From Verrucomicrobiaceae bacterium (GTDB lineage Bacteria > Pseudomonadota > Gammaproteobacteria > Pseudomonadales > CAMLJR01), in NCBI GenBank assembly GCA_028293825.1, contig JAQGNY010000019.1:1-64000 (forward strand): a DNA stretch of 64,000 bases, given 5' to 3'. This document shows, piece after piece, positions 12,115 to 16,992 of the stretch (positions are counted from its first letter, which is position 1; every line of letters starts with the position of its first letter). Both the position numbers and the translations under genes were made by a program. The notes under the pieces were generated by a model. The model was not told the origin of the DNA. It made no database searches and saw only the letters and a program-made list of their open reading frames with translations.

Positions 12115-12458
12115 TTACGCCGCCACTCGCTGACTATCCGCATGCGAATTCGCTGCACTGAGTAACGCAATCAATGCCGCACGCATTGAGTCTTCGGCAA
12201 TGCCGACGCCCCAGCATTTATTGCCACCGATTTCGACATGCACATAACACACGGCTTTCGATGCGGTGCCTTGCTGCAATGCGTGTTCGTGATAGTCGAT
12301 GATTTCGATGGCGGCTGTTGCGATGCCGCGCAATGCGGAAACCGCTGCTTCCAACGCGCCGTTGCCTTCGCCGGTGAATGTCACCGATCTGTTGTCGCTG
12401 TTTTGCAATTGTGCCTGCAATGAGACGCGCGCGTTGTCGTGCGTTTGAATTTGATAGC
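12115..12458 (-). pseudogene. duplicated 3' end of leuA (C-terminal fragment)
   Basis: The frame encodes about 112 residues, from RYQIQTHDNARVSLQA to the stop, that match the C-terminal regulatory/dimer domain of the intact LeuA at 13548-15269, with about nine replacements. Nucleotide similarity includes the terminator hairpin and ends abruptly at about 12458, where hairpin element E begins. There is no start codon or catalytic domain, so it is not a functional isopropylmalate synthase. It is in direct orientation to intact leuA, 1.1 kb away, and the frame is still open, suggesting recent origin or gene conversion. Confidence 0.85.
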
Positions 12459-12461
12459 GCG

Positions 12462-12538
12462 TAGGGCGCAATAAATGAAATGCATTGCGCCACGAATCTA
12501 AGATCGCTGGCGCAACGCCCTCTGGTTATTACACCCTG
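12462..12538. mobile_element. MITE-like hairpin element, copy E
   Basis: The left end TAGGGCGCAATAA is perfect, the right end TTATTACACCCTG is degenerate. The inner pair GCATTGCGCCA/TGGCGCAACGC is kept with one change. It abuts the break of the duplicated leuA fragment exactly, so it marks one edge of that rearrangement. Confidence 0.7.
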
Positions 12539-13547: not shown

Positions 13548-15269
13548 TTACGCCGCCACCTGTTGCCGATCCGCATGCGAATTCACTGCACTGAGTAATG
13601 CAATCAATGCCGCACGCATCGAGTCTTCGGCAATGCCGACACCCCAACATTTATTCCCACCGATTTCGACATGCACATAACACACAGCTTTCGATGCGGT
13701 GCCTTGCTGCAATGCGTGTTCGTGATAGTCGATGATTTCGATGGCCGCTATGGCAATGCCGCGCAACGCGGAAACCGCTGCTTCCAATGTGCCGTTGCCT
13801 TCGCCAGTAAATGTCACCGAGCTGTTGTCGCTATTTTTTAAATCCGCCTGCAACGAAACGCGCGCGTTGTCGTGCGTTTGAATTTGATAACGCTGCAATT
13901 GCCACGGCGTCGCGCGGTTTACATAAAGGGCATTAAATAATTTTTGAATTTCGGCGCTGCTGACTTCGTTGTCGATGGCTTCCGAATGTTTTTGCACGTG
14001 TTGGCTGAATGCGACCTGCAATGCGCGCGGCAATTGAAAACCGTAATCGCGTTCGAGCGAAAAGGCGACGCCGCCTTTGCCCGATTGGCTGTTCACGCGC
14101 ACAACGGCTTCGTAGGTGCGGCCGATATCGACCGGGTCGATCGGCAAATACGGTACATCCCACGCAGTAGTTTTATCCCACGCGCTTAAGCCTTTGCGAA
14201 TCGCATCCTGATGGCTGCCGGAGAAGGCGGTGTAAACCAATTCGCCGACCCACGGATGGCGTACGTGCGTGGGAATGTCGGTGCATTCTTCCGCGCATTG
14301 CACGATGGCGGCCATGTCGCTGAAATCGAGTTGCGGATCGACGCCCTGACTGTAGAGATTCATCGCCATGGTGATGATGTCCATATTGCCGGTGCGTTCG
14401 CCATTCCCGAGCAAGGTGCCTTCGACGCGATCCGCTCCCGCCAATACGGCGAGTTCCGCCGAGGCGACGCCGCAGCCGCGATCGTTGTGCGTGTGCACGC
14501 TGAGTCGCGTGTGTTCGCGGTATTTGAAATTATCGTTGAACCATTCGATGCGATCGGCGAACACGTTCGGTGTGTGTACTTCGACGGTCGACGGCAAATT
14601 GATAATCACCGGTTGGCCTTGATCGGGGCGCCAGATGTCGCAGACGGCGGTGCAGATATCGCGCGCGAATTCGAGTTCGGTTTGCGTGAAGCTTTCCGGC
14701 GAGTATTGAAAGATCCATTCGGTGTCGGGTTGTTCCGCCGCGAATTGTTGTACCCAGCGCGCGCCTTGCTCGGCAATGTTGCGAATGCCGTCGCGGTCGG
14801 TGTTGAACACATATTTGCGCTGCGCGGGTGAGGTCGAGTTGTACACGTGCACGATGGCGCGCTTGGCGCCGCGCAACGATTCGAACGTGCGCGCGATGAT
14901 GTCTTCGCGTGCCTGCGTCAACACCTGGATGGTGACATCGTCGGGAATTAAATCCTGCTCGATCAACTGCTGCACGAAATCGAAATCGAGTTGCGAGGCG
15001 GCGGGAAATCCCACTTCGATTTCCTTGAATCCTATCGCGACCAATTGCGCATACATGCGGTGTTTCTGCGCGGTGTTCATCGGCTTCGGCAAGGCTTGGT
15101 TGCCATCGCGCAAATCGACACTGCACCACTGCGGCGCGGCAATAAGACGGCGGTCAGGCCAGCGGCGATGGGTCATCGTCACGGCTTCGTTGGCGGTATA
15201 TTTTTTGTGGTTGAAAGTGGTGTTGTTGGAAGCGCTGTCGTTGGAAGTAGTGCGATTGAAAGTGTTCAT
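13548..15269 (-). CDS. leuA: 2-isopropylmalate synthase, long (yeast/actinobacterial) form
   Basis: The 573-residue enzyme condenses acetyl-CoA with 3-methyl-2-oxobutanoate to 2-isopropylmalate, the first committed step of leucine synthesis. Metal-binding residues appear in WCSVDLRDGNQAL near the N-terminus and in SVHTHNDRGCGVASAE in the TIM barrel. The C-terminal LeuA dimer/leucine-binding domain is complete (ending ADRQQVAA). The length and the APQWCSVDLRDGNQAL block fit the long LeuA class. The ATG at 15267-15269 follows GAGGAGCAACAC. Upstream is a leucine-rich leader with an attenuator, so translation of Leu codons should set expression. A second copy of its last third lies at 12115-12458. 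Confidence 0.95.
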   Translation of the reverse strand: MNTFNRTTSNDSASNNTTFNHKKYTANEAVTMTHRRWPDRRLIAAPQWCSVDLRDGNQALPKPMNTAQKHRMYAQLVAIGFKEIEVGFPAASQLDFDFVQQLIEQDLIPDDVTIQVLTQAREDIIARTFESLRGAKRAIVHVYNSTSPAQRKYVFNTDRDGIRNIAEQGARWVQQFAAEQPDTEWIFQYSPESFTQTELEFARDICTAVCDIWRPDQGQPVIINLPSTVEVHTPNVFADRIEWFNDNFKYREHTRLSVHTHNDRGCGVASAELAVLAGADRVEGTLLGNGERTGNMDIITMAMNLYSQGVDPQLDFSDMAAIVQCAEECTDIPTHVRHPWVGELVYTAFSGSHQDAIRKGLSAWDKTTAWDVPYLPIDPVDIGRTYEAVVRVNSQSGKGGVAFSLERDYGFQLPRALQVAFSQHVQKHSEAIDNEVSSAEIQKLFNALYVNRATPWQLQRYQIQTHDNARVSLQADLKNSDNSSVTFTGEGNGTLEAAVSALRGIAIAAIEIIDYHEHALQQGTASKAVCYVHVEIGGNKCWGVGIAEDSMRAALIALLSAVNSHADRQQVAA

Positions 15270-15294
15270 GTGTTGCTCCTCATAAATTCTGTCG

Positions 15295-15359
15295 AAAAAA
15301 TCAAACAGGCGGCTGGTGAGGAGCCGGTGTGCGCCGCCTTAAGTCATGGCACACCGGCT
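15295..15359 (-). promoter_or_regulatory. leu attenuator (antiterminator/terminator pair)
   Basis: On the minus strand AGCCGGTGTGC (15349-15359) and GCACACCGGCT (15322-15332) form an 11-bp perfect stem. The second arm also overlaps CGGCT/AGCCG (15310-15326), a smaller hairpin followed nine bases later by TTTTTT (15295-15300). The two structures exclude each other. The first arm lies inside the last codons of the leader peptide, just after its leucine run. Ribosome stalling on Leu codons would therefore change which stem forms, as in classical amino-acid operon attenuation. The exact stalled state that favours termination needs structure probing. Confidence 0.7.
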
Positions 15360-15455
15360 GCGAAGCAGTCGCAGCAGCAGCGCAGACAGAAGCACAGCAG
15401 CGAAGTTAATCGAAACGGCGGCGGAATTAATAGATTGGGTGGAGCGAGTTTTCAT
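15339..15455 (-). CDS. leuL: leucine-rich leader peptide of leuA
   Basis: This 38-residue frame begins at ATG 15453-15455 and ends at TAA 15339-15341, 69 nt before the leuA start. Residues 21-32 read VLLSALLLRLLR, with seven leucines in ten positions (Leu22, 23, 26, 27, 28, 30 and 31; codons CTG and CTT). The segment overlaps the first arm of the attenuator stem. Leu-rich leaders of this kind control leu operons by attenuation in enteric bacteria; the same role here is inferred from position and structure. No strong ribosome site is visible before its ATG. Confidence 0.75.
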   Translation of the reverse strand: MKTRSTQSINSAAVSINFAAVLLSALLLRLLRSRCAMT

Positions 15456-15732
15456 AATTAAGCGATCGAGTTGTGAAGTTGAAAAACCGAAAAAGCTAAG
15501 CGCCCGCGTTACAGTCGCAGCAGGGCCAGTCGATCGCTTTTGAGAGAGGGGTTCGGTTTCATGGCGTTGAGACTAGATGCTCTACGCGGCTTGAGTCAAC
15601 TATTTTGTCGTGCGTAATTTCCGCAGCGCGTGAAATAGAAGGGGCAGCGTTCGATGGGATGGATCAACCTTGGGGCCGATAACTCGCGATGATTTATGCA
15701 AAACATCGCGAAATTAAAGAAGGCGAGCCGGT
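15456..15732. other. intergenic, presumed leu promoter region
   Basis: This gap holds the upstream side of the leu leader and the end of the next minus-strand gene. No clear -35/-10 pair was found for the leader, and no repeat or RNA gene is seen. Confidence 0.4.
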
Positions 15733-16902: not shown

Positions 16903-16992
16903 GGAGAGGTGGCAGAGCGGTTGAATGTACCTGACTCGAAATCAGGCGTAGGTGTAAGCCTACCGAGGGTTCGAATCCCTCCTTCTCCGCCA
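16903..16992 (+). tRNA. tRNA-Ser(CGA)
   Basis: A full cloverleaf with a long class II variable arm: the acceptor GGAGAGG pairs with CCTTCTC, the anticodon arm CTGACTCGAAATCAG gives anticodon CGA (codon UCG), the T arm is GGGTTCGAATCCC, and encoded CCA is at 16990-16992. A terminator follows directly. The last 16 nt of the body (16974-16989) recur at 17142-17157. Confidence 0.95.

Follow-up and report, generated by a model that had tools for sequence, protein, structure and literature searches.

Upstream of leuA in the window, as we call the whole 64,000-nucleotide stretch of DNA analysed here, lies a leader element that is real and conserved. Its sequence features, their conservation, the covariation of one stem, the fixed spacing between that stem and a set of leucine codons, and the link to leuA were all directly observed. 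Judged from these features, the element very probably attenuates leuA in response to leucine by a ribosome-mediated mechanism, probably through two tandem leader peptides.

The leuA gene and its proximal leader

The leuA gene (13548..15269, minus strand; assigned with NCBIfam) encodes a long-form 2-isopropylmalate synthase of 573 amino acids, and starts 70 nt downstream of the leader element. An earlier note on this DNA had described a long-form LeuA standing alone rather than in a leuABCD operon, and this was borne out: another contig carries a leuC-leuD-methyltransferase-leuB-asd cluster with a divergent LysR-type gene beside it (all names except leuC being taken from translations). Because leuC, leuD and leuB sit on that other contig, a lone leuA is ordinary for the lineage of the window.

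The leader frame closest to leuA, hereafter ORF2, has 38 codons (15339..15455, minus strand) and would encode MKTRSTQSINSAAVSINFAAVLLSALLLRLLRSRCAMT, followed by the stop; no Shine-Dalgarno sequence was seen before it in the window. Leucine takes seven of the ten codons in its block LLSALLLRLL (15363..15392, minus strand), which includes a conserved Leu-CGA-Leu, as the earlier note had claimed for a 38-codon frame. A run of seven in ten occurred in 2 of 400 neighbour-preserving shuffles of the 450-nt upstream region. Among 218 surveyed leuA upstream regions only two reached this density on the sense strand, the second being a true relative of the element, and none did so on the antisense strand. 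Plain counts of leucine runs across the order were too weak to be of use, the antisense strand being clearly exceeded only by runs of at least six.

Two helices follow the leucine codons. S1, the putative antiterminator, is a perfect 11-bp stem; its 5' arm, AGCCGGTGTGC (15349..15359), overlaps the leader frame and pairs with the 3' arm, GCACACCGGCT (15322..15332). S2, the putative terminator, pairs AGGCGGC (15333..15339), which adjoins the 3' arm of S1, with GCCGCCT (15307..15313), and a run of six U comes after it (15295..15300; all on the minus strand). The earlier note had proposed an 11-bp perfect stem that overlaps the frame and excludes a smaller hairpin followed by a T-run. The stem, the hairpin and the T-run are indeed present, but the shared arm that such a scheme implies is absent; instead, the 5' arm of S2 lies in the loop of S1, and the two helices interlock, crossing without common bases. 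Their exclusion would therefore be topological, or else they form a pseudoknot. S1 (11 bp) and S2 (6-7 bp) are separated by 0 nt, with L1 of about 10 nt and L3 of about 14 nt, and their stabilities are -21 versus -14 kcal/mol. The folding energy of the leader as a whole is unremarkable (z = -1.3, with 20 of 200 shuffles equally good); thus, the evidence for the leader is comparative, not energetic. Two other hairpins were discarded, namely a weaker overlapping one picked by a terminator scan (CGGCT/AGCCG), which is not conserved, and a 1:2 protector hairpin of the classical type, which pairs GCTGCGA with TCGCAGC in the window but is not consistently conserved in relatives.

The loop of S2 also contains GCTCCTCA (15317..15324, minus strand; p = 0.013 in the window), the complement of the Shine-Dalgarno region of leuA, TGAGGAGC (15275..15282, minus strand). 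Complementarity of this kind, involving the S1 3' arm and S2 loop, is unusual in four sequences (p = 0.003-0.055). With four sequences, sequestration of the Shine-Dalgarno region by the S2 loop at first seemed general, but most of 17 sequences do not show it; sequestration limited to the genus of the window and close relatives is a possibility.

Conservation, covariation and distribution

LeuA homologues were drawn from 57 relatives, from 294 genomes within the order and from 80 named contigs, and the upstream regions of about 218 to 238 fetched leuA loci were read. A relative of the same genus, with a LeuA 71% identical to that of the window, has a leader that ends in LLLVSALLRLLRSRCAMN and the stop, with the C-terminal block LLRLLRSRCAM in common with the window; its stems are the same, with one C-G to U-G change in S1, and its U run is U7. 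A second family includes six genomes with a far more diverged version of the element. In eight of eight sequences Leu-CGA-Leu is followed at a constant distance by the 11-nt arm, an alignment made by eye and reproduced by MAFFT. In this alignment S1 is 97.7% paired, double changes occur in 8 of its 11 pairs, and the covariation score was reached by none of 500 shuffles; in slid registers the whole structure is only 35-50% paired. Alignments of 17 and 31 sequences, which unlike the eight-sequence alignment were fitted to a model and so lean towards S1, gave 97% pairing of S1 and covariation scores unmatched in 500 shuffles; in the 31-sequence alignment 97.2% of the S1 cells pair, and 52 cells are doubly changed, compared with 12.6 in shuffles. 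The pairing of S2, adjoining S1, has a combined p of 5e-8 in 17 sequences, judged against base shuffles in which neighbours are not preserved. Relatives thus conserve both the leucine codons and the stems, with an exact spacing from codons to stem and a covarying S1, and this supports the leucine leader peptide and the putative antiterminator/terminator pair that the earlier note had placed before leuA.

The ORF2 peptides have similar C-termini (LLRLPHGHRA, LLRLTIGHRA, LRLRRGRRA, LLRLRSGRRA and LLRLPGGRRD, each followed by the stop), because the 5' arm of S1 encodes the GRRA block. The arginine of Leu-Arg-Leu is CGA in 17 of 17 aligned elements, whereas CGA makes up 6 of 136 arginine codons (4%) in six genes of the window. 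The covariance model itself contains CGACT, and the fairest count of CGA is therefore that over the eight seeds and 14 Halomonadaceae leaders. Most elements have the stop of ORF2 at model position 25, 31 or 37. From this geometry, a terminating ribosome would sit on the 5' arm of S1, and one at the first leucine codons would leave S1 free.

Covariance models of the eight sequences (R1) and of the 17 (R2) were run on whole genomes; the seeds had been chosen upstream of leuA, part of each model is sequence, and all counts are lower bounds because the search scores no more than a dozen or so candidates in each genome. Within the order, R1 matched in 7 of 391 genomes, all of them seed loci and all at leuA. 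Within the class it found nine new genomes at E<=0.01, each with the match directly upstream of long-form leuA (9/9). R2 contributed a further two from the class and ten from the phylum; seven of these ten belong to another class, and all the additions lie upstream of leuA. Together the two models yielded, at E<=0.01, matches in 21 further genomes, every one directly upstream of long-form leuA (21/21). Weak matches in L260, L261, L266 and L267 (E 0.018-0.028) were discarded, as they are not at long-form leuA. The fetched loci yielded two further genomes of the order with the element. Distribution is patchy: with the named contigs set aside, roughly 150 leuA regions of the order were examined and about 11 have the element, and among the 80 named contigs it occurs in Moritella only, a named case being Moritella sp. 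PE36. The element is thus associated with leuA and scattered over lineages from two classes of a single phylum. Rfam gave no match to Leu_leader (RF00512) in window positions 14900-15700 down to E=5, and no match at the gathering score in eight relatives.

Other short frames were seen before leuA. Family f21 (L185, L196 and L197) has a different conserved, leucine-containing short ORF, MKTSHTLIQLRQH(L/R)SLCLVSARLP(G/S), located 77-114 nt before leuA, with no S1 element. L052 (Parendozoicomonas haliclonae) has a short ORF, MKSSQSFTRTLSLLFSRRQK, together with a hairpin of 13 bp close to the leuA start, possibly another type of leader.

A probable second leader upstream and its predicted promoter

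The earlier note missed an upstream leader, ORF1, and its predicted promoter. ORF1 is a leucine-rich frame of 17 codons (15509..15562, minus strand; MKPNPSLKSDRLALLRL), which ends Leu-Leu-Arg(CGA)-Leu-stop. Equivalents precede 15 of 17 elements, with their ends 98-172 nt upstream of the element. The predicted promoter consists of a -35 box, TTGACT (15594..15599, minus strand), whose position recurs before ORF1 in relatives, and a weak -10 box, TAGTCT (15570..15575, minus strand; 3/6), which ends 7 nt before the ATG. The promoter script ranks an overlapping alternative, TCTAGT, above this -10 box, and a generic promoter scan of the leader gave no site above threshold, neither candidate passing. 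In most of 29 sequences ORF1 is preceded by a TTGACN box and by a hexamer resembling a -10 element, and a Shine-Dalgarno sequence is absent before ORF1 in 28 of the 29. Because the -10 boxes lie mostly 6-7 nt before the ATG and no Shine-Dalgarno sequence is found, ORF1 is predicted to be leaderless, its start codon usually coinciding with the transcription start.

After ORF1 the window has a U-rich stretch, GCTTTTTCGGTTTTTC (15481..15496, minus strand), a possible first termination site; the hairpin before it is weak. A hairpin and a U run come right after ORF1 in L255, L257 and the other-class genomes L271-L276. Halomonadaceae have ORF1 (e.g., MNTTFCYLSLNLRLLAGL, then the stop) without the S1 element. 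Separately, a 10-bp perfect inverted repeat, AAGCGATCGA/TCGATCGCTT (window 15539-15530 and 15469-15460), encloses the end of ORF1 and the U-rich stretch, its 3' arm lying just before the ORF2 start; it was not seen in the same-genus relative. Between ORF1 and ORF2, L271-L276 have a strong hairpin with CCATGG-type arms, then a long U run.

Relatives also differ at the other end of the leader. A U run stands directly after S2 in the window, in the same-genus relative and in G084, and a clear one is found in only some relatives. In relatives without it, the element may act through translation or through Rho. In L254 and L271-L276 ORF2 extends to the leuA start; in such relatives, too, control of leuA may be translational.

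Mechanism, alternatives and known systems

We propose that transcription would start from the predicted promoter (15599-15570), at or beside the ATG of ORF1, which would be translated as a leaderless leader before ORF2 is read in turn. When leucyl-tRNA is scarce, the ribosome would stall on the ORF2 leucine codons just short of S1; S1 could then form, trapping the 5' arm of S2 in its loop and blocking the S2 terminator, so that the polymerase would read into leuA. With plentiful leucine, the ribosome would reach the stop codon and cover the 5' arm of S1, S2 would form before the U run, and transcription would end. In several relatives ORF1 has a hairpin and U run of its own behind it, and for this reason it probably contributes an initial sensing step. 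The placing of the ORF2 stop and leucine codons relative to S1 matches the geometry of ribosome-mediated attenuation.

The strongest competing explanation, unlikely but a serious one, is that S1 and S2 coexist as an H-type pseudoknot acting on leuA translation or on the translating ribosome, with no alternation between terminator and antiterminator. The crossing geometry of the helices is standard for pseudoknots, S1 is the stabler of the two and they could coexist, several relatives lack a U run, ORF2 overlaps the leuA start codon in some, and the Shine-Dalgarno complementarity stands out in the window and in certain relatives. However, that complementarity is not general, the geometry of the ribosome suits attenuation, and in the window, the same-genus relative and G084 S2 is followed immediately by a U run, which an intrinsic terminator requires.

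Much less probable is that only ORF1 functions as a leader, with ORF2 and S1 a duplicate in decay. This would agree with the Halomonadaceae, which retain only ORF1 with a hairpin after it, and with a promoter that belongs to ORF1, but S1 is the best conserved, covarying part of the leader and the leucine run of ORF2 is kept in very distant genomes. That the leucine-rich frame and hairpins arose by chance in G+C-rich sequence is barely credible: the folding energy is not exceptional, and antisense strands also contain short leucine-rich frames (though rarely with more than five in ten), yet neither would account for the covariation of S1 or for 21 of 21 further genome matches lying at leuA.

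Ribosome-mediated attenuation thus remains the preferred reading, and leader-peptide attenuation of leucine synthesis is textbook knowledge. In enteric bacteria and their relatives the leader of the leucine operon is leuL, before leuABCD, and its Rfam family is Leu_leader, RF00512. In Shewanella, a leucine leader forms an attenuator before leuA (PMC2659441). Like these, the window element combines a leader peptide containing a leucine run with a putative antiterminator and terminator before the isopropylmalate synthase gene; unlike them, it has no Rfam match, precedes a lone long-form leuA, and features interlocked rather than shared-arm hairpins, Leu-CGA-Leu and a second leader upstream. The actinobacterial LEU element is a leucine-rich leader before leuA for which crossing helices (a pseudoknot) have been proposed (PMC1262725), and LeuL1 of Streptomyces lividans, MRFGLLLLSCRGEGL, is a leaderless leader before leuA (PMC8079986). 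A leucine-rich leader upstream of leuA, a leader that is leaderless (by prediction here) and crossing helices are thus common to both systems. The LEU element, however, has a single leader and no typical terminator, and its leucine run itself pairs with the leuA Shine-Dalgarno region, whereas the window has two ORFs, an S1 that follows the leucine codons, and a U run. A LEU-type base stem between the leucine run and the leuA Shine-Dalgarno region was not found in the window, where the complement lies in the S1 3' arm and S2 loop. Tandem attenuators occur in the Salmonella mgtCBR leader, whose two short ORFs sense ATP and proline (PMC3641672), different signals, while both ORFs of the window are leucine-rich. 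The trpL leader ORF of Sinorhizobium meliloti, part of an amino-acid attenuator, is leaderless (PMC10117765), as predicted for ORF1, but responds to tryptophan and is single.

Rfam 15 lacks the element, which now has its own covariance model and whose single conserved 11-bp stem connects scattered lineages in two classes. The literature searched, which includes leucine leaders before leuA in Actinobacteria and Shewanella, gave no description of the element. The original survey of proteobacterial attenuators (Vitreschak et al. 2004, FEMS Microbiol Lett 234:357) lies outside that coverage and may list some of these leuA leaders, which limits any claim of novelty. A single attenuator is the normal case (PMC3641672); two leaders for one amino acid, one of them leaderless, in one mRNA would, if true, make the layout of this biosynthetic attenuator unusual, and would give a direct test of why a cell reads the same signal twice. 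A wider picture, conceivable though on balance doubtful, is that of an ancient leuA RNA element in two proteobacterial classes, with two serial leucine leaders, the first leaderless with its own terminator, and ORF2 acting via a pseudoknot-like S1/S2 switch on transcription or translation depending on lineage, Leu-CGA-Leu being a slow reading site.

Two observations concern the surroundings of leuA. On the minus strand at 12115-12471, the window contains a stray 118-aa copy of the C-terminal (regulatory) domain of LeuA, with 92% protein and 90% DNA identity to the end of leuA, from which it is separated by a PEP-CTERM-like gene on the opposite strand; its appearance suggests that part of the gene was recently duplicated in tandem. 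On the plus strand at 16905-16992, in the interval that separates the leuA leader from the nuo genes, a tRNA-like sequence followed by a hairpin and a T-run was noted, by eye only.
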